IMG/VR virus record: IMGVR_UViG_3300027806_000009
Span: 1 to 49,787 of that record
Length of the DNA: 49,787 nt
Direction: 5' to 3' (one strand)
DNA from: a virus
The position numbers and the translations under genes are program-made. Below, piece by piece: positions 1,900 to 49,787 of this stretch (position 1 is the first letter of the stretch; every line of letters starts with the position of its first letter). The notes under the pieces are model-generated. The model saw nothing but the letters and a program-made list of their open reading frames with translations. It searched no databases and had not been told where the DNA came from.

Positions 1900-2666
1900 A
1901 CCGACCGACCTTCACCATCCAGGTGCCCGGCTACCAGCCCGTAACGGTTACGCTGGAGCCTTCCGCCGCCCTCACCCCACCCACGGCACCCCCCGGCGAT
2001 GCGGACGCGGCAGGGGCCAGCGGCGGGGGGAAGGTGGGCAAGCGTGGCGGCATGACCAACGCCGAGAAGTGCCGCGCCTACCGCGCCCGTCAGGCCGGTG
2101 TCGCGCCGGTGTCGCGCGGTGTCGCGAACGGTGTCGGAACGGTGTCGCGCGACACCGCCGACACCGTTGGGGGGGTAGGGGGGGTTCTTTCTTCGGAGAC
2201 TCCAATCCTCGAAATCAGGTCAGAAATGCAACAAACACCCAAAAACAGACTCTCTCTGCGCGACACCGCGACACCGACACCGACACCGCGCGACACCATT
2301 GCGACACCGGTAACCATCGCCGACATCATCGAGGCTTTCCCGCCCAACGCGGGCACGCCGCCTAGCACCAAGCAGGTCAGCCTGGCCGTGCGTGCGGTCT
2401 GCATGATGCAGGCGTGCAGCCAGGATCAGGCGTTGGAGTTTGTCTACCGCCGGGTGAAGTCTTACGCCGCAGGGTCGAGGGTCGAAACCACGCAGGCCCA
2501 GTTCCGACCGAGTTGGAGCAGGTGGGTGGAGAAAGACGCCTTCGGCCCCGAGATGCCCGCGTGGTGGTTCCAGCGGAACGCCAAGGCCGCGCCCGAGTCT
2601 GCCAACGAGCAGGTAAACCGCGAGATGGGCGGCGGGTTCCAGCCTGGACGCAGGAGGGTGATATGA
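1896..2666 (+). CDS. Putative replication initiator protein (lambda O-like by position)
   Basis: A 256-residue protein. Residues about 50-66 (GGMTNAEKCRAYRARQ) resemble the basic opening found in many DNA-binding replication proteins. Residues about 67-135 are a low-complexity Thr/Pro/Asp/Val linker that encodes the repeats at 2097-2308. The C-terminal part (about 140-240) is folded and helical with several Trp. The next gene is a DnaC-like loader, overlapping by 4 bases, which is the order of lambda O and P. I see no decisive catalytic motif, so initiator function is inferred from gene order and from the iterons inside the gene. Confidence 0.55.
   Translation: MNRPTFTIQVPGYQPVTVTLEPSAALTPPTAPPGDADAAGASGGGKVGKRGGMTNAEKCRAYRARQAGVAPVSRGVANGVGTVSRDTADTVGGVGGVLSSETPILEIRSEMQQTPKNRLSLRDTATPTPTPRDTIATPVTIADIIEAFPPNAGTPPSTKQVSLAVRAVCMMQACSQDQALEFVYRRVKSYAAGSRVETTQAQFRPSWSRWVEKDAFGPEMPAWWFQRNAKAAPESANEQVNREMGGGFQPGRRRVI
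2097..2308. other. Putative replication origin: inverted clusters of GGTGTCG iterons
   Basis: Five GGTGTCG copies start at 2097, 2108, 2118, 2130 and 2141, spaced 10-12 bp, so they lie on one face of the helix. Eight copies of the complement CGACACC start at 2150, 2159, 2261, 2269, 2275, 2281, 2291 and 2302. Bases 2141-2156 are a perfect 16-bp palindrome. Between the clusters (2166-2258) lie two G7 runs and a relatively A-rich stretch that could melt. Iterons inside an initiator gene followed by a helicase loader is the lambda origin plan. Origin function is inference. Confidence 0.6.
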
Positions 2667-3601: not shown

Positions 3602-3956
3602 AGAACACACAACCATCGACGGACAGTTGGTCCTCGTTGAAGGGGAAGGCGCGCCGCTATTCCGCATCAGAGCCCCCTTGATAAACCAACTGTTTCCCTG
3701 CACTTTCGGTCCAGCCGACGCGCAGCGCGCAAAGTCCGCTTGCACGGGCCGCATAGAGGCGACTGGAATCATGCAGTCAAACTCTCTCGGGCAGCCGGTT
3801 GGCTTCGTGGTCGAACGCTTCGACATCATCCCGCCAGCAACCGACCTGCCGACGCTGGACGATCTTGGCGGCGTAAATATCACGGATGGGGTAGACCCGT
3901 CCGAGTTTGTTGGGAAACTCCGTGAGGGCGAGAGCGAACGAAAGGATGGTGGGTGA
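3594..3956 (+). CDS. Hypothetical protein, 120 aa, in replication operon
   Basis: Two in-frame starts exist, ATG 3582 and ATG 3594. The AAAGGA at 3577-3582 gives sensible spacing only to 3594. The protein is beta-rich at the front (GQLVLVEGEGAPLFRIRAPL) and has an acidic tail. Its place directly after the helicase loader, overlapping it by 8 bases, suggests a replication-associated role such as a DNA-binding accessory. No single-stranded-DNA-binding signature can be confirmed. Confidence 0.6.
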   Translation: MYEEHTTIDGQLVLVEGEGAPLFRIRAPLINQLFPCTFGPADAQRAKSACTGRIEATGIMQSNSLGQPVGFVVERFDIIPPATDLPTLDDLGGVNITDGVDPSEFVGKLREGESERKDGG

Positions 3957-4234
3957 TGGGCGTTCCGAAGATTCAGTGGCGGGAGATTGACACGCGCACA
4001 AAGTACTACCGCATCAGGGCCGAGCCTGACGGGGTTGAACTGATATGCGACAACGATGGCCACGGGTGGCAGTGGCACATGCGATGCCACGAAGCGGGAG
4101 CGGATGCCCACACGTCCGGCAGTGGGTTTTATAGCACCATTGACGAGGCGCGGGACGCCTGCGAATACGCCTTCAGCCGCGAGTGGAAGGCACGGCAGTA
4201 CGACGCAGCACAGAAACACGAAGGGAGCAGGTGA
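3956..4234 (+). CDS. Hypothetical protein, 92 aa
   Basis: ATG 3956 is preferred; GTG 3953 would add one residue. The protein is rich in His, Trp and Cys (GHGWQWHMRCHEAGADAH) and has a helical end rich in Ala and Glu. It closes with HEGSR, whose codons double as the ribosome site of the next gene. Function unknown. Confidence 0.6.
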   Translation: MGVPKIQWREIDTRTKYYRIRAEPDGVELICDNDGHGWQWHMRCHEAGADAHTSGSGFYSTIDEARDACEYAFSREWKARQYDAAQKHEGSR

Positions 4235-4437
4235 TGGACAGGACAGTTGGAACATGCTCGCGGTGCGGAGGCCCGGTTACGGTGCCCGCCGTGTGGAACG
4301 GGACGATCCCGCCCACGCCAACATGCGGGAGATGTGGGGCTGTGGCGGTCAGTGGGCACGGCCCACGGATCGAGACCGAGAGGCCACCAAAGCAGTGGGC
4401 ATCATCGCACACCAAGCCAATCGAAGGGAGCAAGTGA
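4234..4437 (+). CDS. Small zinc-ribbon protein, 67 aa
   Basis: Two CxxC pairs (CSRCG near residue 8, CGRCG near residue 33) form a probable zinc ribbon. The rest is Pro- and Thr-rich and disordered. It ends IEGSK; those codons carry the AAGGGAG ribosome site of the next gene. Such small zinc ribbons are common in phage early regions; the target is unknown. Confidence 0.65.
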   Translation: MDRTVGTCSRCGGPVTVPAVWNGTIPPTPTCGRCGAVAVSGHGPRIETERPPKQWASSHTKPIEGSK

Positions 4438-4868
4438 TGGCGAAGGAACTGAAAGACATGAGCGTAGAGGAGTTGGTATTCGAGGCTTGGGAGGAGGGCT
4501 TGGCTGACGCTGTAGAAGTCGGAGGCTTCGATGAAATCAACGCTATCACCGCCGAACTCACCCGCCGCATCACCGAAGCCAACGCCCGTGCCGATCGGCT
4601 CGCGGCGGAGGGCAAGATTCCCAATGGGCATGTCATGCTGCCGGGCGGAGAGGTGGTGAAGGTATTGGGCGAACTTCCAATAACGGCGGATCGTTCAATC
4701 GCTGGTATTCACGCGGAAGTGTACGTCAACACCCTATCGGGTACGCAGAGTGGATTTGTCAATCCACACGTGCTGCTATCGACCGGGGACCGCCAAGATG
4801 GGTGGCATATTTCCGCCTCCTACGCCACCCGCGAAGCCGCCATCAAGAACGCTAAAGGGAGCAAGTGA
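4437..4868 (+). CDS. Hypothetical protein, 143 aa, paralogue family with 4868 and 45928
   Basis: The N-terminal helical segment KELKDMSVEELVFEAWEE, followed by ITAELTRRITEANARADRLAAEG, is shared in outline with the products at 4868 and 45928. The C-terminal half is beta-like (GIHAEVYVNTLSGTQSGFV). A strong AAGGGAG precedes the ATG within the previous coding sequence. The gene seems to be one member of a duplicated small family. No biochemical role can be read. Confidence 0.6.
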   Translation: MAKELKDMSVEELVFEAWEEGLADAVEVGGFDEINAITAELTRRITEANARADRLAAEGKIPNGHVMLPGGEVVKVLGELPITADRSIAGIHAEVYVNTLSGTQSGFVNPHVLLSTGDRQDGWHISASYATREAAIKNAKGSK

Positions 4869-5536
4869 TGGACCTGAAGAAGATAAGCGACGAAGATTTG
4901 TGGGAACGCCTACTTGGAATGGTCCAAGACCCATGCGTTGCCATGGCCAGCAAGATCATGGATGAAATCGACCGCCGCATCACCGAAACGGAAAAGATGG
5001 CCGACCAACTCCGCGCTTGCCTAGACGGGGACGACTACAACCACGCGCCCCTACTTGCTAGGGGCCTACTGCGGTCGAAGATGTCCGCGCTGAGCGAGGA
5101 ACACTACGCCGCCGAATGGTTAGACGGCACGGGGATCGTGCTTTGGGGAATGTTGGGTGGCGAGCCTCGGGATTGGGGGATGCAGACGGTAAGCGAGGAA
5201 ACGCTGCAACTGCTGCGAACACTGGCTTTTGAGTCCGGCGGATGGTGGCAGGACGATAAGACGTTTGTTCCGCTGGCAGAGTGGTGGAACAAGCAAGGCG
5301 CGATGACATTCAACCCGCTCAGCGACTTCACCGAAGCCAACGCCCTCGCCGATCGGCTCGCGGCGGAGGCGGGGGCGGCGAGGAAGTTGATTGTTGCGCT
5401 GCGGGACATTATTAGGGATTACAGCGTTGTAATACCTATGAAAGTCTCTGTTGCACAAAAACTGAAAGAGACGGTTGACGAGTATGAAAAATGTGCCATC
5501 GCCATCAACGCCGCTGGCGACTTGGGGGCGAAGTAA
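4868..5536 (+). CDS. Hypothetical protein, 222 aa, duplicated-helix family
   Basis: It starts MDLKKISDEDLWERLL, with EIDRRITETEKMADQL near residues 35-50 and FTEANALADRLAAEAG near 155-170; both segments match the helical motif in the 4437 product. The middle (about 75-145) has the pattern YAAEWLDG...GGWWQDDKTFVPLAEWW, a Trp-rich module inserted between the helices. The last 60 residues look like a coiled coil. It is probably a fusion or insertion product of the small paralogue family. Confidence 0.6.
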   Translation: MDLKKISDEDLWERLLGMVQDPCVAMASKIMDEIDRRITETEKMADQLRACLDGDDYNHAPLLARGLLRSKMSALSEEHYAAEWLDGTGIVLWGMLGGEPRDWGMQTVSEETLQLLRTLAFESGGWWQDDKTFVPLAEWWNKQGAMTFNPLSDFTEANALADRLAAEAGAARKLIVALRDIIRDYSVVIPMKVSVAQKLKETVDEYEKCAIAINAAGDLGAK

Positions 5537-7075: not shown

Positions 7076-7674
7076 AAGCCACCAACCTGCTAGAGCAAAG
7101 GCGGCTGGAGCAGGCGAAGATCGCGCCTCCGGTGCTGCCCAAGCCCAAACCCCCGGCCAAGCCACGCCCAGCCCCGACCAACGCGCGGGCGATCGTCAAG
7201 CCCACGCCGGGGCACATGGGGGTGGTGTGGCCCGCGCACCCGCGCCGGGCAGCCAAAGAGCCAGCCGTCAGCGAGGAAGTCAGCCGGAATATCAACGCCC
7301 TGTTTGACTGCTGGTGTGTGCATCTTTGCATTAGCCGTGGCTTCGTGTTAGACTTGGACGAGAGCAAGATGCCGGAGTCAAGCCGCGAGGCGTGCAGACG
7401 CACAATCTGGTGCGCACTGCTGGAGATGGGGTGTGAGGAAGTGAAAATCGCGGGCACTTTCCGCGTCTACCGGAACGAGATCAGGAACACGGCGTATCAC
7501 TTCAGGCACGGTACGCGCTGGTGGCAATACAATAACCAAGGGAGGCAAGGATGCTCAAAGAACTCATCGGTGGACTTGACCGATCAACCGGCACTAGCGA
7601 GGCCGAAAGCCTCTACAACAAGCAGATCGCGCTCGAATCCAGGTACGCGGGCCGTGGGTTTGCCGATGCGATAG
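7072..7674 (+). CDS. Hypothetical protein, 200 aa, overlapping the RNA polymerase start
   Basis: GTG 7072 overlaps the previous stop. Residues about 15-65 are Pro/Ala/Lys-rich and disordered; about 68-150 form a Cys- and Trp-containing folded part (LFDCWCVHLCISRGF). The last 40 residues are translated from sequence that also encodes the start of the RNA polymerase, a 124-base overlap far longer than any other here. That tail is Ser- and Arg-rich and looks like non-evolved coding. The overlap may couple polymerase translation to this gene. Confidence 0.55.
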   Translation: MKATNLLEQRRLEQAKIAPPVLPKPKPPAKPRPAPTNARAIVKPTPGHMGVVWPAHPRRAAKEPAVSEEVSRNINALFDCWCVHLCISRGFVLDLDESKMPESSREACRRTIWCALLEMGCEEVKIAGTFRVYRNEIRNTAYHFRHGTRWWQYNNQGRQGCSKNSSVDLTDQPALARPKASTTSRSRSNPGTRAVGLPMR

Positions 7675-10133
7675 CCGAAGCGCAGGAGAACATCAGGAAG
7701 GGCAAGGGCGGTCGTCTGCGGCCTGCCGAACGGATGATCGCCCTGTGGTTCGGTGAGATGGAATCGGTCGTGCGTCAGGCGGTGAAGATCGCCAAGTCCG
7801 ACCCCGACAAAGTATCGGCCCACTACGCGCCGGGCCTTGCGCTGGTCGTGGGCACAAGCCCGAAGATCGCCACGGCCACGGCGATGATGACCATGATCTC
7901 GCGGGTGATGCGAGACCCTAGCGGGTCGTCCTATACATCGTGTGCGACCGAGATTGGCAACCTGCTACAAGCCGAGGCCGAGGTGATCGCCATGCGGAAA
8001 CTGCTACGACAGCGGACAAAGCGTTGCCGCGAGGCGGGCGACTTGGCCGGGATCAGGCGGGCATCGCGGACGCGGAAGAAGGTCAACGAGTTTGGCGACA
8101 GGCACCTAATTCACAAGGCCGCTGCGAACATGACCGCCGCCGAGGGGATGATCCTAGAGACGCGGGGGAAGATCGAGCGCACCCGCGCCGGGGCGTGGCT
8201 GATCGAACTGGTCAAACAGACCTGCATCATCGTCAAGCAGGACAAAACCGAGGTTGACGCTTTCCGGGTCGCCAAGGAGCCGGGGGTAAAGAAGCGCAGG
8301 CTGGTCCTCTACGCCCACCCCGACATGCTTGCCCACTTGGACAAGGGGATCAAGGCCCGCGCCGCTATCCGGCCCCGGTGCCCGATCATGGTCGTCCAGC
8401 CCCCATCGTGGGCCGACACCCAAGCGGGTGGGTATCTGGTGATCCGCAAGGGGATCGTCGCCAACGCCGGGCCTATGCACAAGGCTGAACTTGCGCGCCA
8501 CGACATGAGCCGGACGTTTAGGGGCATCGACGCGATGAACCGGCCCGCGTACCGAATGTGTGGCCCGATTCTGGACACCTTCAAGCATCTGTGGTGTGAT
8601 GAGCAATCCTGCCCGGTTCTCCCAGCGCAAGAAGACCCGATCGCCCCGACGTTCCCGCACGCGGACATTGTTCCGAAGGACAAATACTACCGCTGGAAGC
8701 GTTCGGAGGAAGGGGCAACGTGGCTGAAAAGCGTCGAGGGTTCGCGGTGGCGGATGCTCTGGCGTGGGCACATCTCCAAGGTGCGGGAACTGAAGGCAGA
8801 CCGCAAGGGGATGGTGATGCTGATGAGCGCGGCGAAGGACGCGGGCACCTCGGCGTTCTGGATACCAAACCGCCTCCAATGCCAAGGTCGCCAGCAACCC
8901 ATGACCCAGCACTTGAACGGCCACGCAACCGACTTGGCCGAGGCGATGCTGTTGTTCGACCGACCGGTTGAGCCGGGTGAGGACGGGCGGGAGTTCATGG
9001 CCCTGCAACTGGCAAACGCCTGGGGCCTAGACGGGTGGGATAAACGCCCCTTGGCCCAGCGGGTCCGGTTCGTCGATGAACACCGGCAGATGATCGAGGC
9101 CGTGGCGCGCGACCCGCTGAAGAACCGCGAGTGGATGATGGGGGACAAGAAAACGCGGTGGCAGTTCCTAGCCGCGTGCATGGCGTGGCATGACCCGGAG
9201 ATGGCCCGGCACGCGCCATCGTCGGTTGATTGCTCGTGCAACGGCCTACAGCACAGCGCGGCTATGTCGCGGGACGAGAATCTTGGGCGGCTGGTGAACC
9301 TTATGGACACCGGCAGGCGAGAGAACGTACACGGCGACGCGGCTGCGTTGCTGCTGAAAAGGGTGCAGGCCGACGCGGCGAGGGGCGACAAGTGGGGCAC
9401 GCAGATGGTCGGCCATGTAGACAGCAACCTGTGTAAGCAGCCGGTGATGACCGAAACCTATGGCGTTACCCACCGTGGCCGGACGGAGCAGTTCGCGGCC
9501 AAACTGGAGGATCGCGGATGGACCTCGCCCAGCGGCGGGCCTTCGCCAGAGGCGTACTGGGCCAGTTCGTACCTTGCCAAGATGATGCCCGACGTGATGA
9601 ATGACCTTGGGCGTTCGGCGAGGGAGATGATGCTTTGGCAGCAGGAGAGCGTCAAGCGAATCATCCGGCAAACGAACCAGCCAATCGGGTGGCTCACGCC
9701 GATCATCGGCTTCCCGGTGGTGATCGAGAAAATTCAGGAGAAAACCCGGCAGATTCGCACCTGCGAGCATCGGCTTTCGATGTTCGTCCCGGTCGAGGAC
9801 ATGGTGATCGACTGCGACGCGACGGTTACGGCGATTGCGGCGATGCACACCCACTCTCTCGACGGCACCCACAATATGCTCAACGCGATGGAGTGTGCCC
9901 GGCGCGACATCGACTACCGATCAAAGCACGACCAGTTTACGACCCACTCGGGCCGGATGCGGGAGGCAAAAAAGATATTTGCCGAGCAGTTTGTCGAACT
10001 GCACAAGTCCGACCTGCGGCTCGACCTCGCAAACCAGTGGACCGAGCGGTACAAGGTGGACCTGCCACCCCTGCCGGAGCGGGGGACGCTTGACCTGAAC
10101 GCCGTACTAACAAGTCCCTACTTTGCCAGTTAG
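7551..10133 (+). CDS. T7-type single-subunit DNA-directed RNA polymerase
   Basis: 860 residues, close to T7 RNA polymerase. The start ATG 7551 has GGGAGG upstream. Motif A is VDCSCNGLQHSAAM with the metal-binding D560. Motif B is KQPVMTETYG with K629 and Y637 at T7 spacing, but the arginine that lies four residues before this lysine in T7 is a serine here. Motif C reads MHTHSLDGTH, so the expected H-D pair is absent and the nearest aspartate is D771, two places later. The gene lies just before the structural genes, as in phiKMV-like phages, and should transcribe the late genes from promoters I could not identify. Confidence 0.95.
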   Translation: MLKELIGGLDRSTGTSEAESLYNKQIALESRYAGRGFADAIAEAQENIRKGKGGRLRPAERMIALWFGEMESVVRQAVKIAKSDPDKVSAHYAPGLALVVGTSPKIATATAMMTMISRVMRDPSGSSYTSCATEIGNLLQAEAEVIAMRKLLRQRTKRCREAGDLAGIRRASRTRKKVNEFGDRHLIHKAAANMTAAEGMILETRGKIERTRAGAWLIELVKQTCIIVKQDKTEVDAFRVAKEPGVKKRRLVLYAHPDMLAHLDKGIKARAAIRPRCPIMVVQPPSWADTQAGGYLVIRKGIVANAGPMHKAELARHDMSRTFRGIDAMNRPAYRMCGPILDTFKHLWCDEQSCPVLPAQEDPIAPTFPHADIVPKDKYYRWKRSEEGATWLKSVEGSRWRMLWRGHISKVRELKADRKGMVMLMSAAKDAGTSAFWIPNRLQCQGRQQPMTQHLNGHATDLAEAMLLFDRPVEPGEDGREFMALQLANAWGLDGWDKRPLAQRVRFVDEHRQMIEAVARDPLKNREWMMGDKKTRWQFLAACMAWHDPEMARHAPSSVDCSCNGLQHSAAMSRDENLGRLVNLMDTGRRENVHGDAAALLLKRVQADAARGDKWGTQMVGHVDSNLCKQPVMTETYGVTHRGRTEQFAAKLEDRGWTSPSGGPSPEAYWASSYLAKMMPDVMNDLGRSAREMMLWQQESVKRIIRQTNQPIGWLTPIIGFPVVIEKIQEKTRQIRTCEHRLSMFVPVEDMVIDCDATVTAIAAMHTHSLDGTHNMLNAMECARRDIDYRSKHDQFTTHSGRMREAKKIFAEQFVELHKSDLRLDLANQWTERYKVDLPPLPERGTLDLNAVLTSPYFAS

Positions 10134-10926: not shown

Positions 10927-11116
10927 GGCGTGGCGCAAGGCCGGGGTAGACAAGTCGGTGGCTGAGAAGATCGTCCGGGCTACCCAAGGTGTCATCGCCA
11001 ACCCCGAACTGCCTATCGGCGCGGATCAGGCTGGCCGCGATGCGTACTTCCTCGCCCTTGGCGGTTATCACATGCTGCGCGATCTGTTCGAATACGCCAC
11101 GGCCAACAAAGAATGA
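10871..11116 (+). CDS. Small helical protein upstream of portal, 81 aa
   Basis: ATG 10871 is chosen for the AGGAGA 9 bases upstream. The protein is helical (LIEAWRKAGVDKSVAEKIVRATQGVI, then GGYHMLRDLFEYA). T7-like phages often carry a small gene immediately before the portal, some of them virion assembly factors. This overlaps the portal gene by 4 bases. The exact role is unknown. Confidence 0.6.
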   Translation: MPLPSTLAPLVKPPNPLIEAWRKAGVDKSVAEKIVRATQGVIANPELPIGADQAGRDAYFLALGGYHMLRDLFEYATANKE

Positions 11117-12762
11117 CAAACTACACCCAGCCCGACCCCCTCAAATCGGGGGACGTTCGGAGGGCCTACGACGACCTTGTTCCCACGCGGCGGATGCACA
11201 ACAACTTCGCCGAGAGCGTCGCCCGCGAGGTTGACCCACGCGCGTTCCCGCCCGAGATTACGAGCGACGGCGATACGTTCCTGCAACCCGCACAGTGGGA
11301 GGGTTCGCTTGGAGATCAGGCGTTCGTCGGTCGGTACGTCGCCAACGCCTTCCCCGCCACGGGCGAGCCTTGGCTTGATCTAGACATTGACGACAGGCGC
11401 GAGCAGAACGCGGACCCGCAGGTGGTACAGTACGTGCGGGCCTTGGTTCGTAACTACGGAACAACGATCAACAACCGCCTCTACTCGGCCAACACCAAGG
11501 GCCTTGATTCGGGCGGGTTCCAGCGTCGGATGCACGCCGTAGCCAAGCAGTTGAGCATTGTCGGCGGCTGCATCGTGCGAGGGCTTCCCGGCCTTCGAGT
11601 CGAGGTTATTGACCGCCGCCGCTACGTCGTCCACCGCAATCAAGCGGGCGACGTTGAGCAGATCATCACCACCCACCGGATCGACCCCCTGCGCCTGCCC
11701 GCCGATCGGATGGCGAAGATTCAACTCCCAGAAAAGTGGATGGAGAAGAAGATCGAAGATCGGCGAGTGGTGGTCTACACCTCGCAGACACAGGTGATGG
11801 AGGGAGATGACAAGGGAAAGTTCAAGTTGGTTGAGGAATGCAACGGTAACACTATCTTCGAGCAGACTACGCCGGTTGCAACGATGTGGAACCCCTGCTG
11901 GTCGCTCACGCAGGACCAGATGGGCGAGGTCGGGGCAATGGGGCAATACCTCACGCTGCTGCAAGAACTGGCCTTTGTCCAAGACGTTATCCGCAAACTG
12001 ACGGCCCTGAACACCGATGTTGCTGTCGGCATCGACAACAACATGCCGCTGTCCCCCCGCCAGTTGTTCGGCGGCGAGTGGGGCCGGACGATCCGTGGCG
12101 TGAACGTAACGCCCGACGGTCGGATCGGGAACATCGGCGTTCTCGAACTGGACAAGTCAGCCGCGCTCCGCGAGGCGTACCAGTATTACCAGACGCTTCG
12201 GCAGACGGCGTTCCAGGTGTTCGGCATCGGATCGTCGATCGCGCCCCAGAAGGAGCGCGTTACCGCCGAGCAGATCAACTTGATCCGGTCGGATATCTCC
12301 GAGCGTTCGTACTCGCTGCTGATCGCCAGTTACGACTCACTTATGCAGCCAATGGCGCAGTGGGCCTATTGGCAGGCGGTCAAGGACGGGATCATTGAAC
12401 TGCCAGAGGAAGGCACGCCCGAGGCCGAGTTGCTTTCCAAGACGATTATCCCCCGCGTTCTGACCGGATCGGCTACTATTGCAAGCCAGCGTCGGGTAGA
12501 AAAAATCTACAGTCTGTATCAGGCCGCACAAGTCATCCCCAAATCTGCCGAAGTTCTCAACCACAGCATCATCTTCCAGCAGATCGCCACAGATATCGGC
12601 CTTGGGCAGATTCCCGGCTCTGTTTACACGGAAGCCCAGATGCAGGCCAAAGAGCAGCAGGCGATCCAGATGCAGACCAACGCACAGGCCCAACTCGCGG
12701 GTGTCAACGCTGCGGCGCAGGCCCAGCAGTCAATCATGGAACAGCAAGGCACAGGAGGCTAA
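11113..12762 (+). CDS. Portal (head-tail connector) protein
   Basis: 549 residues, near T7 gp8 (536). Supporting features are its position before scaffold and capsid, the conserved-type segments TMWNPCWSLTQDQMGEVGAMGQYL, RVTAEQINLIRSD and ERSYSLLIASYDSLMQPM, and a Gln/Ala-rich C-terminal helix (QMQAKEQQAIQMQTNAQAQ). Twelve copies would form the packaging ring through which terminase drives DNA. Confidence 0.9.
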   Translation: MTNYTQPDPLKSGDVRRAYDDLVPTRRMHNNFAESVAREVDPRAFPPEITSDGDTFLQPAQWEGSLGDQAFVGRYVANAFPATGEPWLDLDIDDRREQNADPQVVQYVRALVRNYGTTINNRLYSANTKGLDSGGFQRRMHAVAKQLSIVGGCIVRGLPGLRVEVIDRRRYVVHRNQAGDVEQIITTHRIDPLRLPADRMAKIQLPEKWMEKKIEDRRVVVYTSQTQVMEGDDKGKFKLVEECNGNTIFEQTTPVATMWNPCWSLTQDQMGEVGAMGQYLTLLQELAFVQDVIRKLTALNTDVAVGIDNNMPLSPRQLFGGEWGRTIRGVNVTPDGRIGNIGVLELDKSAALREAYQYYQTLRQTAFQVFGIGSSIAPQKERVTAEQINLIRSDISERSYSLLIASYDSLMQPMAQWAYWQAVKDGIIELPEEGTPEAELLSKTIIPRVLTGSATIASQRRVEKIYSLYQAAQVIPKSAEVLNHSIIFQQIATDIGLGQIPGSVYTEAQMQAKEQQAIQMQTNAQAQLAGVNAAAQAQQSIMEQQGTGG

Positions 12763-32714: not shown

Positions 32715-33097
32715 TAGACCCAAAAAGCCTGCCCCAGAAGGAGATGGTCGAGTACCTTCGGGGCTTCCCGCTCGACGCGCTCAGCGAGGCGTGCCTTCTG
32801 ATTGAGCCGGGGATGAAGCGGGCAATCGAAAGCCGGATGCTGGTCCTCATGTCCAAAAGCGTCGCCGAAGGGCGGGTAACGAACTACGACAAGAACTTTG
32901 AGATACTCGGCTACCGCGACTTCTCGCCGACGGACTTCCAGCGCATGGCGCAGGCACTAGAGAAGTTCAAGTTGACCGCCGCGATCGAGAGCGTCGGCAC
33001 GGCGGACGATCAGGTGCTATCGGCACTCCGCAAGTCCGGCAGGCAGGCACGATCGGAACTGCCCGACCCGGCAGACGGTCTAGGGGATAGAGGGTGA
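32711..33097 (+). CDS. Terminase small subunit (T7 gp18-like), putative
   Basis: 128 residues, GTG start at 32711, overlapping the large subunit gene by 4 bases. It is helical and charged (FPLDALSEACLLIEPGMKRAIESRMLVLM) with a disordered acidic tail. Sequence identity to known small subunits is not obvious, so the call rests on position directly before the large subunit. Confidence 0.6.
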   Translation: MIDPKSLPQKEMVEYLRGFPLDALSEACLLIEPGMKRAIESRMLVLMSKSVAEGRVTNYDKNFEILGYRDFSPTDFQRMAQALEKFKLTAAIESVGTADDQVLSALRKSGRQARSELPDPADGLGDRG

Positions 33098-34926
33098 GCC
33101 TCGACCGCTTCTACGACCCGGACTATACCGCGTCGATGCAGGCGTTCAGGAAGAAGGCACTGGACAGTTTTGCATACTGTGTGTCATACTGCTGGGAAGT
33201 CCTCGACCTCCAGAGCAAGGCCGCACTCTCGCCAATCGAACTGGACATGGCGAACTACATCGCCCACGGCCCCTCGCGCCGGTTCCTGTTCGCGTGGCGT
33301 GAGAGCGGCAAGTCGATGATCGGCACCCAGTTGTACCCGCTGTGGTACATGCTGAAGTACCCCGACCACAACATCCGCATCCTCAGCAAGTCCGGTGGGC
33401 AGGCGCAGAAGTTCGTCGTCGGGATCAAGACGATGATGCAGCAGATACCGCTGTTCCAGCAGTTGATGCCGCCAAAGAACGGCCCGCACCGCAACAACAC
33501 CACGTTGTTCGACTCGGGCCTTCTGAAACTGCCCAACCGCGAGCCGACGTTGCAGGCGCAGGGGGTCGAGGGCCAACTGGCAGCCGGTCGCCACCACCTC
33601 TGCATCATCGACGACGGGGAAACGGATCAGAACTCCATCACGGCGGACGCCAAGGCCGGGCTGCTGAACATCTACTCGCAGGTCTATAACATGGCCTACA
33701 AGTCCAACGGGCTTGTGCCGAACCTGCTGGCGATCGGCACCTACAACCCGGCACAGTCGATCTACCCGACGCTGTTCAACAAGGACGCGGGGTACGGCTA
33801 CGCCGTCCGGTCCTACCCGATCGTCTACCCAACGCACAAGCAAAGGGCGCGGATACCGGGCCTTGCGCCGGTGATCGCGGCCAAGATCGACTCGGGCGAG
33901 GCCACGCCGGGCGAGGCGGTCAACCCCGAGCGGTATAGCCCGGAAACGATTGCCGACATCCTCAGCCAGCCCCGCAGTCAGGTCGAGCGGCACTACATAG
34001 GTATCCCAGACTCCAGCGGCGACAATGACTTCCCGCTCCGCCTGGGTGATCTGCTGGTCTACCCATGCTCCGAGGGGATCGCCCCGGTGCAACTAGCGTG
34101 GGGCGCGACCTCGGGCGACGACCCGACGCTGCTGGACATCCAGACGGTCGGGCAGGCGGGAGACAGGTTCCGCCGCCCGATCTACGCCGACGCGAAGTTC
34201 GGGACGCTGATAAACCGCCACGCCCGGATTGACCCGGCAGGTTCGGGCGGGGACGAAACGACGTGCGCCATCGGCGGGACGCTCGGGGGCAAGTTGTTCG
34301 TCCAAGAACTTCTGGGCCTTCGGTTCTCGCCGACGGGTGCCGAGCCGGAGGCGACGACCCAGGCGTTACTCCGCACGCCGGACAGCAAGACACCCGTGAG
34401 CCGGTCCTACGGGTTGCGGCTGATCGCCCAACGGCTCAAACTTCGCAAGACGACCAGTTGTACGGTCGAGTCCAACGCCGGGGGTGAGTTGTTCGCCCAC
34501 GCGCTTCAGCAGGAGATCACCCGGATATCGGACCAAGAGTGGTCCTGCCGGGTGGACTGCAAGCCCTCGACGAAGAACAAACAGAGCCGGATCATCGACT
34601 CACTGGAAGGGCCGTTCCAGAACCACCAGATTGTGTTTGACCCGACGGTTGCCGCAGACCAAATCCTTCAGGGCCAGTTGGCGATGACCGCCAAGGGCGT
34701 GGAGTTGCAGCACGATGACCGGGCGGACGTGCTGGCGTCGTTGGTCAACGACCTCTCGACGCACCTGCACTTCATCCCCGAGCAGGCGGCTCAGGTCGCC
34801 AGGGACCGGATACAGGCGTGGGAGGAAGATTCCCGGCCTAGCAAGGACGAGCAGCCGTACACGCTGGGGGGGAGGTTCTTGGGCAGGTCCAGGGCCTACA
34901 GCGGGCGTAGTCGGTGGGAGGATTGA
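33094..34926 (+). CDS. Terminase large subunit (T7 gp19-like)
   Basis: 610 residues (T7 gp19 586). The ATPase Walker A is WRESGKSM with K73, and Walker B is LCIIDDGE with D173 and D174. The nuclease domain begins at ARIDPAGSGGDETTCAI with D380, the T7-type DPSG.G.DET motif. It packages DNA through the portal and cuts concatemers. It is the last rightward structural gene and ends in a perfect hairpin. Confidence 0.92.
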   Translation: MSLDRFYDPDYTASMQAFRKKALDSFAYCVSYCWEVLDLQSKAALSPIELDMANYIAHGPSRRFLFAWRESGKSMIGTQLYPLWYMLKYPDHNIRILSKSGGQAQKFVVGIKTMMQQIPLFQQLMPPKNGPHRNNTTLFDSGLLKLPNREPTLQAQGVEGQLAAGRHHLCIIDDGETDQNSITADAKAGLLNIYSQVYNMAYKSNGLVPNLLAIGTYNPAQSIYPTLFNKDAGYGYAVRSYPIVYPTHKQRARIPGLAPVIAAKIDSGEATPGEAVNPERYSPETIADILSQPRSQVERHYIGIPDSSGDNDFPLRLGDLLVYPCSEGIAPVQLAWGATSGDDPTLLDIQTVGQAGDRFRRPIYADAKFGTLINRHARIDPAGSGGDETTCAIGGTLGGKLFVQELLGLRFSPTGAEPEATTQALLRTPDSKTPVSRSYGLRLIAQRLKLRKTTSCTVESNAGGELFAHALQQEITRISDQEWSCRVDCKPSTKNKQSRIIDSLEGPFQNHQIVFDPTVAADQILQGQLAMTAKGVELQHDDRADVLASLVNDLSTHLHFIPEQAAQVARDRIQAWEEDSRPSKDEQPYTLGGRFLGRSRAYSGRSRWED

Positions 34927-37456: not shown

Positions 37457-37484
37457 CCACCCCACCCCCGCCACCCTTTACCAA

Positions 37485-37528: not shown

Positions 37529-37939
37529 ATGCCAAAGCCAGCCGCACGTACCGTTGCCGCGTTCGATCGTATCGCCGGTAGTTCGATGTTCCGAACAGAC
37601 GGTGCGGATATCGACCTCTGCCCGGCACTGATCGAACTGGCCCAAGCCGTCCATGCCGAGCCGTCCGATAACGATGCGTGGCTTAGCCTTGGCGAGTTTG
37701 GGGAGTTCACCTGCCCCGACCTGATCGTAGGGGCATATTGGGCCTTGAGCGAGTGGCATGCGGGCCAGTATTCGCCCGAGTACGCCGCATTGTCCGCGCT
37801 GGGCGATGTATTCCAGCCCGGCATGAGTTCGCAGCCCACCGATGACGAACAGCCCGAATACTACCCGTACAAGGCAATCGGCGAATACTTCGCAGCCAAG
37901 GCTAGCAAACCAAGGGGGTTGGATTCGGTAGAGGTCTAA
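37529..37939 (+). CDS. Hypothetical early protein, 136 aa
   Basis: The protein is acidic. It has an ordered middle (DIDLCPALIELAQAVHAEP, LIVGAYWALSEWHAGQYSPEY) and a tail rich in Asp, Gln and Tyr. A strong TTTCAGGAGG precedes the ATG. Small acidic early proteins can be DNA mimics or host-enzyme inhibitors, but nothing here proves that. The stop lies at the start of an 82-bp repeat. Confidence 0.6.
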   Translation: MPKPAARTVAAFDRIAGSSMFRTDGADIDLCPALIELAQAVHAEPSDNDAWLSLGEFGEFTCPDLIVGAYWALSEWHAGQYSPEYAALSALGDVFQPGMSSQPTDDEQPEYYPYKAIGEYFAAKASKPRGLDSVEV

Positions 37940-38020
37940 CCCCACCCGCGCCGGCCCAACGGCCCGCGCGTGTATTCGTTGGCGATGCTGCCAGCGTAAA
38001 CACAGGAGGATCGAATATGG
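37939..38020 (+). repeat. 82-bp perfect direct repeat, copy 1
   Basis: Identical to 38365-38446. It includes a strong hairpin (CGCGCCGGCC, loop CAAC, GGCCCGCGCG with one mismatch), then a GTAAAC segment, AGGAGGATCGAAT and the ATG of the next gene plus one base. It carries a whole leader: hairpin, SD and start. Confidence 0.95.
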
Positions 38021-38364: not shown

Positions 38365-38446
38365 ACCCCACCCGCGCCGGCCCAACGGCCCGCGCGTGTA
38401 TTCGTTGGCGATGCTGCCAGCGTAAACACAGGAGGATCGAATATGG
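38365..38446 (+). repeat. 82-bp perfect direct repeat, copy 2
   Basis: The second copy of the leader at 37939-38020, 426 bp downstream. It supplies the hairpin, ribosome site and ATG of the 38443 gene. Recombination between copies would delete the 38017 gene exactly. Confidence 0.95.
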
Positions 38447-41251: not shown

Positions 41252-41442
41252 CAAACACACTTCCACCGTCCGAAACCACTCCCGCACCCGAGAAGAAGAT
41301 CACCGGCCTGCGCGTGTCGAAACAGCACGCCGCCGAACTCAACGAGGCGCGGGAACTCTACCGCGCTCGGACGAACGTGAGCATCAGCATTAGCGACATG
41401 GTGGGCCTGCTGGCACGCCAATACACAAAGGGCAAGGCATGA
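41248..41442 (+). CDS. Ribbon-helix-helix-like protein, 64 aa
   Basis: ATG 41248 has AGAAGGA upstream. After a Pro/Thr-rich arm, residues about 18-62 read ITGLRVSKQHAAELNEARELYRA then VSISISDMVGLLARQY. That matches the strand-helix-helix of Arc/MetJ-type DNA-binding proteins. It overlaps the integrase start by 4 bases, which suits a regulator of integrase or excision. Confidence 0.55.
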   Translation: MTNTLPPSETTPAPEKKITGLRVSKQHAAELNEARELYRARTNVSISISDMVGLLARQYTKGKA

Positions 41443-42560
41443 CCACCAGGACCGCACGGGGGCAGACCTACCACACCGGCACCTACCGCGATGCGGAGGG
41501 CAAGTTGCACCGCGCCACGCTCGGCAACGTCAAGCACACGACGAAGGCCCAGGCCCGCGCGGAACTGGAAAGGCTGGCGCAGGTTGCCGCGTCCGGCGTG
41601 CTGGCCGAAGGCGAGACTCCCACCGTCGAGGACTGGGGGGCGGTCGTCGTCGATCAACTGCTAGCCGGGCGCGAGCCAACCACCGGGCGATCTTACCGCG
41701 CAACATTTGCGCATCTTTGCAAATGTTTCACGCCCGAACGCCGCATCGGGACGTTCAGCACCGCCGACGTGCGGGCGTTCATCGAACACCTACGCGCCCA
41801 GCCGAACATCGACGGCACGGGCAAGGCGACCGATTGGATGGTGGCCCAGCACTGCCGCAACGCACGCCGGGCCTGGGGGCTGGCGATGCGATACCCCACC
41901 GCCGAACGGCCCTACATCGCCCGTAACCCGTTCGCCATGACCGAACTGCCCAACCCGGTACACGACGAGGGGTTCCGATACATCACACTCGACGAGGCTG
42001 GCGCGATGCTCGCCGCCTGCCAATCGCCCGCCGAGCGGATCACCCTGGGGCTGGCAAGGCTGGCGGGGCTGCGGTTCAACGAACTGGCGCGGGTGCAGCA
42101 AGCAGACTTTGATGGAAAAACGAGGCTGTTATCCATCACGCTCGACCACGAGAGGCGGGGCAAGGGCAGAAGCACCAAGCGGGCGGCGCGTGAGGTTCCG
42201 ATCTGTCCGGCCCTCTGGCTGCTGGTCGAGGCTGGCGCACCGTTCGACCGGCTCCCGCACCTTGCCGACGGGCGGGCCGCGCGGACATGGATGCGCCGGA
42301 TCATGGCCCGCGCCAACGTCGAGGGCGTGCGCAAGCCCTTCCACGACCTGCGCAAGTCTCTGGAGAAGGATTGGCTGGACCAGCATGGGATACACGCCTG
42401 CCGGTGGCTTGGCAACAGCCCGAGCGTGGCGATCACCCACTACCACCAGACCAGCCGGGCCGATGCCGGGCGGGTTACGGGTGTCAACGATCCGGTCGCC
42501 GACTACCAACAGGCGATGGCGCGGCTTGTGGATAACGTGAAAAATCTGGCGCGGGCTTGA
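41439..42560 (+). CDS. int: Tyrosine recombinase (phage integrase)
   Basis: 373 residues. An N-terminal arm-binding part (TYHTGTYRDAEGKLHRATLG) is followed by a SAM-like core-binding domain (about 70-170). The catalytic domain has R212 in LAGLRFNEL, the box H302-D-L-R305, and the nucleophile candidate Y335 in THYHQ. The usual second His of LGHSS is replaced (WLGNSPS). It would insert and excise the phage genome. A candidate attP could not be proven. An excisionase-like gene follows. Confidence 0.92.
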   Translation: MTTRTARGQTYHTGTYRDAEGKLHRATLGNVKHTTKAQARAELERLAQVAASGVLAEGETPTVEDWGAVVVDQLLAGREPTTGRSYRATFAHLCKCFTPERRIGTFSTADVRAFIEHLRAQPNIDGTGKATDWMVAQHCRNARRAWGLAMRYPTAERPYIARNPFAMTELPNPVHDEGFRYITLDEAGAMLAACQSPAERITLGLARLAGLRFNELARVQQADFDGKTRLLSITLDHERRGKGRSTKRAAREVPICPALWLLVEAGAPFDRLPHLADGRAARTWMRRIMARANVEGVRKPFHDLRKSLEKDWLDQHGIHACRWLGNSPSVAITHYHQTSRADAGRVTGVNDPVADYQQAMARLVDNVKNLARA

Positions 42561-44765: not shown

Positions 44766-45016
44766 CCCCTACCTGCCCCAAGTGCAACAGCCGCGATTGG
44801 ACCGTCGAGCGAACCGACGACGGCGTACCCGACGACTCACCCTACGGCGGGGCGAGGTACTTCACGCTCGGAGCGTGCGGGGAGTGTGGGTACTCAGAAG
44901 TAATCCCCAACCATCGCATCACCAAAGAACAGGCCCCCGTTTTACTCTCTGACCTGCGGCGAATGAGCGACCTACAGCAGATGATTGTTGAGCAAATGCC
45001 GGACGACCAGACTTGA
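44762..45016 (+). CDS. Zinc-ribbon protein, 84 aa
   Basis: CPKCNSRDWTVERTDDG at the front and CGECGYSEV near residue 40 form a Cys4 ribbon of a type common in small bacterial and phage proteins. The rest is helical (LLSDLRRMSDLQQMIVEQM). It overlaps the previous gene by 4 bases. Confidence 0.65.
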   Translation: MTPTCPKCNSRDWTVERTDDGVPDDSPYGGARYFTLGACGECGYSEVIPNHRITKEQAPVLLSDLRRMSDLQQMIVEQMPDDQT

Positions 45017-45059
45017 CAGGCACCCCCACCCCACGCGGGAACGCGCGGGCTGGGATTCA

Positions 45060-45935
45060 ATGACGACGACCATTACCAACCCGCTGCCAGGGCTTCACAC
45101 GGTACACTACGAGGTCTACCGCCAGTGGCAAGCCGTCAACGCTTCGAGCCTGAAGCACGCCCTTCGTTCGTGGGCGCACTTCCGGCACGAGTTGGACGCG
45201 CCGCCAGTGGAAACCGACGCGCTCCGTCTGGGCCGGGCGTTCCACATGGCCCTGCTGGAGCCTGACCGTGCGGCATCGCTGATCGTCTGCCCGCCCAAGT
45301 TTGACCGCCGCACGAAGGACGGCAAGGCCACAGCCGAGGCGTTCGAGGCGACGCTTACGCCCGACCACATCCAGGTGGACGCGATCGAACGCGAGGACAT
45401 GGGCCGGATGCGGGCACAGATCATGGACAACCCCGAGGCCCGGCTGCTCTTGACCAACGCGAGAGGTGTCAATGAGCAGTCGGTGCTGTGGTGCGATAAG
45501 GCAACGGGCATCGAGTGCAAGGGCCGGATCGACCGGCTACTCGAAACCCGCAGTGCCCGCATCGTCATCGACATCAAGACGGCTGCGGACGCTTCGCCCA
45601 AAAGGTTTGCGGCGGACGCGATCAAGTACGGATACGACGTGCAGGCCGCACACTATGCCGACGCGATCCGCACGCTGCACGCCGACAGTAAGCCTGTGGA
45701 CTTCGTTTGGATCGTCGTCGAGAAAGCCGCACCGTTCGCCGTCATGGTTTACCGGGCGAGCGAGCCGGACTGCCAGCCGGACATGATGACGTTCGGCCAG
45801 TCGCGGCGGGGCAAGTTGCTCCGCGAGTTGAGGGCGTGCCGGGAGAACAACAAGTGGCCGGGCTACGGCGAGGGCATCCTGCCCCTGCGCGTCCCGGCTT
45901 GGGAAGCAAGCAAGATGGAGGTTGGCGATGAGTAA
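45060..45935 (+). CDS. RecE-like PD-(D/E)XK exonuclease
   Basis: 291 residues. The front SSLKHALRSWAHFRHEL...LRLGRAFHMALLEPD is the typical opening of RecE/DUF3799-type nucleases. Catalytic motifs are D158 in KGRIDRL and D171-I-K173 in IVIDIKTA. A Gln/Tyr motif follows in YDVQAAHYADA. It would resect DNA ends for the RecT/Bet protein two genes on. It is translated with the 45928 gene (8-base overlap). Confidence 0.8.
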   Translation: MTTTITNPLPGLHTVHYEVYRQWQAVNASSLKHALRSWAHFRHELDAPPVETDALRLGRAFHMALLEPDRAASLIVCPPKFDRRTKDGKATAEAFEATLTPDHIQVDAIEREDMGRMRAQIMDNPEARLLLTNARGVNEQSVLWCDKATGIECKGRIDRLLETRSARIVIDIKTAADASPKRFAADAIKYGYDVQAAHYADAIRTLHADSKPVDFVWIVVEKAAPFAVMVYRASEPDCQPDMMTFGQSRRGKLLRELRACRENNKWPGYGEGILPLRVPAWEASKMEVGDE

Positions 45936-46284
45936 TCCGAAAGACTTGGACGTAAAAGAAATGACCGTGCCGGAGTTGTGTGATGTTCTCCGGGATCAAG
46001 ACGATTGGGAGGGCGGCGTTACCGCTGAACTATCGGCCAAGCAGAATGAGTGCGAATCGGAAATCATTCGCCGAATCGAAAACGCGAAGGGGTTGGCCCG
46101 TGTACGAAACACGCTAACGGAGCCGCCGACAGGTGAATACTCGGTGATTGCCTACGACAGCAGCGCGGCCAACTGGAAAGAGGTCGATACGACCAGGGTT
46201 CTAAGCACACCCATAAATCCACCGATGGAAGGATACCCATTCTGGATACCACGCCCCCTGTTTGATGGAGTGCCCAATGAGTAA
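45928..46284 (+). CDS. Hypothetical protein, 118 aa, between RecE and RecT genes
   Basis: The front KDLDVKEMTVPELCDVL and ESEIIRRIENAKGLA match the helical motif of the 4437 and 4868 products. The end contains WKEVDTTRVL and PMEGYPFWIPRP. It overlaps the neighbouring genes at both ends (by 8 bases each), so its expression follows the recombination genes. The role is unknown. Confidence 0.6.
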   Translation: MSNPKDLDVKEMTVPELCDVLRDQDDWEGGVTAELSAKQNECESEIIRRIENAKGLARVRNTLTEPPTGEYSVIAYDSSAANWKEVDTTRVLSTPINPPMEGYPFWIPRPLFDGVPNE

Positions 46285-47224
46285 TCTGACTGTGAAGGAC
46301 CGCGAGGACTTGGTTCAGCGGGTGAGCGAGTTGGTCCCGGCTGACATGATGAAGTGGTCGCCAGCCGAGATCGTGCTGATCCGCGAGCGCACGCCCGAGA
46401 AGGTGGACAACACCGCTTTTCTAGGGTTCCTACTGGTTGCGGCGCGTGCCGGGTTGAACCCCATCGAAAACGACATCTACGCCCTGCCGTACTTTGACAA
46501 ACAGAAACAGCGCACCGTAACGAGCATCATCACCGGCATTGGTGGTATCCGCAAGACGGCCCAGCGCACGGGCCGATACCTTGGCATGACGGCCCCAGTC
46601 TACTACGACAGCAAGGGCAACGGGACAGAGATTTGGGTGGGCGGTGGTCCGCCGCACGCCGTCAAGATCGGTGTTCGCGTTCGGGATTGTGCCGAGCCTA
46701 CTTGGGCGATTGTTTACTGGAGCGAGTACGGCGGCACCGAGCAGCAGTGGAAGTGGAAGCCAGTCCACATGCTGACGAAGGTTGCTGAGGCCCACGCGCT
46801 CCGCAAAGTGTTCCCCGAGTGCGGCGGTCTGTACGAGGAAGCCGAGGCCGACGCGATCCAGGGCCGCAAGCCGGTCGAGAACACGGCTGGCACCATCGAC
46901 CTGTCCGCCGAGTTGCGGGAGGTTGAGGCACCGAAGCCCGTGCGTGAGGTTGTGGACGAGGTGAAGCCTGCACGCGCACCCAGCAAGCCCGCGCCGAAGA
47001 TGCCGATTGACCCGACCGAGTTTGTCCAAGCGGTCGAGGACACCTGCTATGGTCGCGGCCTTGACAGCACCACGCCCGGCTGGTTGCTAGCCAAAGAGGT
47101 GCAGCACCGCAAGGTGGCGGACATCCACGGCACGACCACTGCCCAGCGGCAAGCATTCTGGGACAAGTTGCACGACGGCGGCTACGACCAGTACGGCGCG
47201 CCAGAGGGGAGGGCTGGCAAGTGA
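46277..47224 (+). CDS. RecT/Bet-family single-strand annealing protein
   Basis: 315 residues; ATG 46277 follows GGAG. The core FLGFLLVAARAGLNPIENDIYALPYFDK, RTVTSIITGIGGIRKTAQRTG and KWKPVHMLTKVAEAHALRKVFPE (broken here by short gaps) is characteristic of the Bet/RecT superfamily. The C-terminal 100 residues are disordered, Pro/Lys-rich, then a helical end. It anneals single strands made by the RecE-like nuclease, for replication or recombination. Confidence 0.88.
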   Translation: MSNLTVKDREDLVQRVSELVPADMMKWSPAEIVLIRERTPEKVDNTAFLGFLLVAARAGLNPIENDIYALPYFDKQKQRTVTSIITGIGGIRKTAQRTGRYLGMTAPVYYDSKGNGTEIWVGGGPPHAVKIGVRVRDCAEPTWAIVYWSEYGGTEQQWKWKPVHMLTKVAEAHALRKVFPECGGLYEEAEADAIQGRKPVENTAGTIDLSAELREVEAPKPVREVVDEVKPARAPSKPAPKMPIDPTEFVQAVEDTCYGRGLDSTTPGWLLAKEVQHRKVADIHGTTTAQRQAFWDKLHDGGYDQYGAPEGRAGK

Positions 47225-49659: not shown

Positions 49660-49787
49660 AGAAGAAGCAGACAAACGCGAAGGAACTGGCGGACCAACTC
49701 GAACACCAGAAGTTTCAGATAGGGTGCCTTCGCACCGAGATCAGGAACGAGGCGGAGAGGATTTGGAAGATCGGTAGCGACGACCAC
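49656..49787 (+). CDS. 5' part of junction-spanning small protein (hypothetical)
   Basis: ATG 49656 opens the gene that continues at position 1 and ends at 205 on the circle. The first 44 codons lie here, and all but the first codon and two bases repeat the left end of the window. GGCGGAG in the previous coding sequence serves as ribosome site. See the entry at 1-205 for the product. Confidence 0.85.
   Translation, partial: MKKKQTNAKELADQLEHQKFQIGCLRTEIRNEAERIWKIGSDDH
49661..49787. repeat. Right copy of 127-bp terminal overlap
   Basis: Identical to 1-127. It shows that the contig closes on itself. The true genome length is 49,660 bp if one copy is removed. Confidence 0.95.

Follow-up and report, generated by a model that had tools for sequence, protein, structure and literature searches.

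A predicted initiator-iteron-loader replication origin within an orphan gene of a T7-type phage lacking a detectable T7 replisome

In the textbook view, T7-type phages bring a replisome of their own. Viral record IMGVR_UViG_3300027806_000009 raises the question of how a phage with a T7-type RNA polymerase (RNAP) and virion may replicate when no T7-type DNA polymerase or primase-helicase, a feature of membership in the T7-like phages, is detected in it, and whether a dense array of short repeats inside one of its genes is where replication would begin. The window analyzed here is the whole stretch of 49,787 nucleotides; its two ends share 127 bp (1-127 = 49661-49787), so that it closes to a circle of 49,660 bp, and the shared stretch may be either true terminal repeats or the assembler's overlap of a circle.

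By its single-subunit RNAP and its T7-type terminase and virion genes, the window fits the T7-like phages (Autographiviridae, wide sense). Alignment of the RNAP to mitochondrial RNAP showed the conserved polymerase motifs, as judged by eye, and the portal gene starts no more than about 1 kb downstream. In addition to the features collected in Table 1, the window codes for tail proteins, internal virion proteins and a Holliday junction resolvase. Profile searches of the scanned ORFs returned no match to DNA_pol_A or DnaB_C in the window, and no DnaB/gp4-type helicase was detected in it, which confirms the sequence-only reading of a T7-type virion and RNAP without either enzyme. The window also contains perfect direct repeats beside small genes, one of 82 bp (37939-38020 / 38365-38446) and one of 47 bp (244-290 / 742-788), and an element, GGCTGGCGCGGATT, shared by positions 37459, 40492 and 40969 near the integrase region, the copies of which are possible promoters or recombinase sites.

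Table 1. Positions of the repeat array and of the genes discussed, in window coordinates
Feature	Coordinates	Strand	Remarks
Orphan initiator gene, 256 aa	1896..2666	+	ATGA overlaps with both neighbour genes
Left iteron cluster	2097..2147	+	Five direct GGTGTCG, spacing 10-12 bp
Two inverted heptamers ending left cluster	2150..2165	-	First one forms 16-bp palindrome
Core (presumed unwinding element)	2169..2258	+	G7-TA-G7, T-rich tract, then A-rich tract 2207-2250
Right iteron cluster	2261..2308	-	Six inverted heptamers
DnaC-like AAA+ helicase loader, 312 aa	2663..3601	+	phrog_50 E 1.2e-17; phrog_3277 E 7.5e-12
T7-type single-subunit RNA polymerase	7551..10133	+	phrog_414 E 5.7e-111; PF00940 E 1e-73
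Portal / head-tail adaptor	11113..12762	+	phrog_449 E 2.2e-36
T7-type terminase large subunit	33094..34926	+	NF033889 257.5 bits (cut-off 150)
Tyrosine integrase	41439..42560	+	phrog_1 E 6.2e-26
Exonuclease VIII-like	44985..45935	+	phrog_412 E 2.2e-69
RecT-like annealing protein	46262..47224	+	PF03837 E 1.7e-22

The repeat array and its core

A recount bore out the thirteen GGTGTCG/CGACACC heptamers claimed at 2097-2308, five in direct and then eight in inverted orientation, forming two inverted clusters, one on each side of a core; the whole window holds 31 such heptamers against 12.4 expected. Spacing in the left cluster is 11, 10, 12 and 11 bp, followed by 9 and 9 bp to the two inverted copies, so that the helix phasing originally proposed holds here; the right cluster, which has overlapping CGACAC units, is irregularly spaced (8, 6, 6, 10 and 11 bp) and not phased throughout. 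The perfect 16-bp palindrome said to join the left cluster to its inverse is present at 2141-2156, and extends to 18 bp (2140-2157) when its flanks are counted.

The heptamers occupy all three reading frames (3, 4 and 6 copies), and therefore the repeat belongs to the DNA and not to the protein. Resampling the codons of the same protein 5000 times gave on average 0.9 heptamers and at most 6, compared to the 13 observed, while no 212-bp segment of 200 simulated order-3 Markov genomes had more than 3. A reading of the repeats as low complexity of the protein or as a product of replication slippage, with no function in the DNA, is hardly credible: the short tandem CGACAC units of the right cluster would suit it, but copies in three frames and both orientations would not, and codon resampling fails to reproduce the array. 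Repeated DNA-level sites within the presumed initiator gene, one feature of lambda-type origins, are thus present.

As to the core, which had been described as a G7 and an A-rich stretch, the A-rich part stands, but the G run is actually G7-TA-G7 (2169-2184). In stability, the 70-bp segment starting at 2185 ranks within the lowest 0.32% of the genome, and A-T skew on the coding strand is 0.68 at 2207-2250; an A-rich coding strand at the core is shared with lambda and with loci L184, L243 and L083. A low-stability A-rich tract next to the iterons, another lambda-type feature, is therefore found in the window.

Initiator, loader and their relatives

The iteron region codes for residues 68-138 of a 256-aa protein, the frame of which is arguably translated, since its gene shares ATGA overlaps with both neighbours. 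This putative initiator has no match in PHROG, Pfam or NCBIfam, the single hit being at E 0.11, and matches no profile of the O-like or replication initiation protein families in PHROGs. A low-confidence structure model (mean pLDDT 36) predicts a helix at residues 55-66, no structure at 67-140 and helices at 141-243, and neither the family profiles nor this model allow a DNA-binding domain to be assigned. The gene directly downstream overlaps it by 4 bp and encodes a DnaC-like loader by both profile match and P-loop, in agreement with the lambda O-ori-P order proposed from the sequence.

Lambda (NC_001416; PMC7466680) resembles the window in that its origin lies within the gene of its initiator, as predicted here, its iterons fall in mixed frames, an A-rich coding-strand tract adjoins them, and O and P overlap by 4 bp. 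However, lambda has four 18-bp iterons in a single cluster beside the AT-rich tract, an arrangement replaced in the window by thirteen heptamers in two inverted clusters on both sides; likewise, the window initiator lies outside the O-like families, and its loader is DnaC-like. On its layout and on comparison with relatives, a lambda-like initiator-iteron-loader reading of the locus is well supported, but the geometry is not that of lambda.

Viral scans with the initiator, the loader or the RNAP alone returned near-identical contigs only. One relative (L002, 97% identical) agrees with the window at all 165 bp of 2148-2312 but differs from it at 31 of 1287 other positions (Fisher p 0.04). Another is L153, a contig of 5.6 kb that was binned into a Phycisphaeraceae MAG; its initiator is 96% and its loader 97% identical, and its 14 intact heptamers include two iterons gained in frame (21 bp), which offset the decay of the first one. 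Right-cluster heptamers are intact in both (6/6), and no relative was found that keeps the protein and loses the repeats. Judging from the binning only, the phage would have a planctomycete (Phycisphaeraceae) host. Two further observations concern the neighbourhood: in L153, the initiator and the loader are parted by a 1.18-kb insertion (3694-4875) holding two ORFs, each about 200 aa long, and in L177 (G001 contig C10) positions 1-691 match contig C50 at 92.6% identity as far as approximately the initiator start codon, past which an RNAP gene stands in the initiator's place, at a sharp mosaic junction.

Neither initiator nor loader matched the phage collection at E 0.01 and 0.001, and the one initiator match at E 10 was irrelevant. 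To find distant relatives of the loader, its sequence and then a three-row alignment were run against 400 genomes of the MAG's order; of the weak matches of the initiator in 400 genomes, the two inspected (L157 and L159) fall, by eye, in unrelated host genes. In L184 (G037 contig C27; its genome is of the same order as G001), the loader is 24% identical to that of the window when the two are aligned. Upstream of it lies an orphan gene which, as in the window, carries a short basic motif ahead of two in-gene clusters around a similar core. Its twelve iterons are GCGTGAC, in clusters 93 bp apart, whereas 100 shuffles gave 6 at most. The two cores align with a score of 37, reached by 0 of 1000 shuffles, a likeness that may partly stem from protein similarity. 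Here a changed initiator goes with changed iterons, the layout being kept. Moreover, the L184 element encodes a tape-measure protein, indicating a long-tailed virion, unlike the T7-type window; the module therefore crosses virion types. In L243, the gene ahead of a loader relative is an O-like initiator (phrog_678 E 1e-17) and contains GGGTGCAGG iterons. Among loader relatives with enough upstream sequence, a clear exact-heptamer array was present in 2 of 23 and a few more equalled the best of their shuffles; most of the remaining ones have no exact-heptamer array upstream, which counts against the origin reading.

Facing clusters of the window's own heptamer were also seen elsewhere. Among the matches listed for a three-heptamer scan, many arrays run in steps of 3 and look like coding repeats, and these were set aside; the list also held intergenic-looking arrays and two initiator-like loci. 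Eight contigs (L003, L009, L010, L024, L053, L089, L093 and L109) carry two facing GGTGTCG clusters, mostly in 11-bp steps, with a spacer of roughly 64-105 bp; the arrays of L010 and L109 lie downstream of a phage-exonuclease-like frame (by tblastn for L109, by eye for L010) and are overlapped by short ORFs only. Such clusters are absent from the two Pelagibacter phage regions checked. A palindrome scan added one further cluster, in the GC-rich phage contig L139 (10420-10620), where TGACACC/CGACACC copies follow a frame that looks AAA ATPase-like by eye.

Iteron clusters of plasmids also serve in partition and repression. The array could accordingly be a platform for an operator, a centromere-like partition site or packaging, with replication starting elsewhere, and GC skew is on the side of this possibility: its extreme values are found at 42.0 and 9.8 kb, so that the skew check proposed earlier lends no support to an origin at 2.2 kb. 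We nevertheless consider it unlikely, as array, AT-richer core and loader recur together twice, in L184, where the iteron is another one, and in L243, where the initiator is O-like; besides, the terminase large-subunit gene is at least about 17 kb away on the circle, and no partition ATPase occurs among the scanned ORFs. It is also conceivable, if quite improbable, that the origin is real and a host protein or another phage protein binds to the heptamers. The failure to recognise a DNA-binding domain in the 256-aa product would suit this, but the basic motif before the iterons in both the window and L184 speaks against it, and iterons that change along with the surrounding gene, as in L184 and L243, fit binding by the gene's own product.

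Altogether, an initiator-iteron-loader origin within the initiator gene is the best reading of 2097-2308, given the upkeep of the array, the overlapping loader and the parallels in L184 and L243, and we give this prediction, made from sequence, a probability of about 0.8. The 256-aa protein would bind the heptamers of both inverted clusters, gathering them all in one complex, upon which the A-rich, low-stability core between them would open. The DnaC-like loader would then place the replicative helicase of the host on the strand thus exposed, and the phage DNA would be copied by the host replisome, leaving the T7-type RNAP to act in transcription only.

An RNA polymerase lineage without T7 replication genes

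An alignment-based scan found RNAPs at 80 or more loci. In 28 of the matches listed (the window, its copy L124 and C10 included), the portal follows the RNAP by 0.7-1.5 kb, and no T7 DNA polymerase or primase-helicase occurs in the available sequence of these loci; for the seven loci with the classic set that could be measured on one strand among the matches listed, the RNAP-portal gap is 6.7-10.9 kb. In an iqtree phylogeny of the listed RNAPs, the 27 non-redundant members make up one side of a split (support 0.999, UFBoot 100), and with midpoint rooting the window branches first among them. Another 44 RNAPs on the tree come from loci with a T7-type DNA polymerase and/or primase-helicase, both being present in LUZ100 and Caulobacter phage S2B. 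On whole records, several of the lineage ones being fragments, DNA_pol_A was found in 0 of 15 lineage records compared to 8 of 8 controls, and DnaB_C in a single lineage record (L280) and in 8 of 8 controls. Overall, the surprise expressed in the sequence-only reading, an origin type unexpected in this virion class, reaches further than a single phage, as absence of the T7 replisome seems to characterise the whole RNAP lineage.

Within this clade, replication genes differ between members. Locus L280 and contig C10 share the window's clade and an RNAP adjoining the portal, and the 29-kb record of L280 has no DNA_pol_A match; unlike the window, however, L280 has a DnaB helicase of its own, along with a replication initiation protein (phrog_2509). 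Primase-related profile matches occur in L273, L274 and L268, partial TOPRIM matches in L273, L274 and L257, and a DNA helicase is matched by profile in L273 and L258, with similar-looking frames in other members.

The nearest RNAPs of the phage collection to four lineage members reach no more than about 31% identity, and a DNA polymerase is annotated in LUZ100, S2B, YIMV22061 and ctgrD200, which are among them. Integrase-carrying T7-like phages have been described with a DNA polymerase (PMC10134795, PMC10142737). LUZ100 and S2B resemble the window in their T7-type RNAP, virion genes and integrase (PMC10134795), but in both of them the genes for a T7-type DNA polymerase and primase-helicase separate RNAP from portal, whereas in the window neither enzyme was found and RNAP adjoins the portal. 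An earlier description of the RNAP-portal lineage may exist, our coverage of the literature being partial. These results probably point to a deep, integrase-bearing T7-type lineage with T7 RNAP and virion, without T7 DNA polymerase and primase-helicase, and with interchangeable, host-dependent replication modules, of which the in-gene iteron origin with its loader would be one.

Implications for T7-type phages

The predicted origin is of the known initiator-iteron-loader type, differing from that of lambda in having an iteron cluster to either side of the core and in its family-less initiator. The two-sided in-gene array with its orphan initiator would provide a compact, testable origin from planctomycete-associated phages. 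Moreover, a lineage keeping the T7 polymerase for transcription and drawing on host replication through exchangeable modules would, if real, uncouple the two components of the T7 strategy, and would show how T7 transcription and replication came together or apart.
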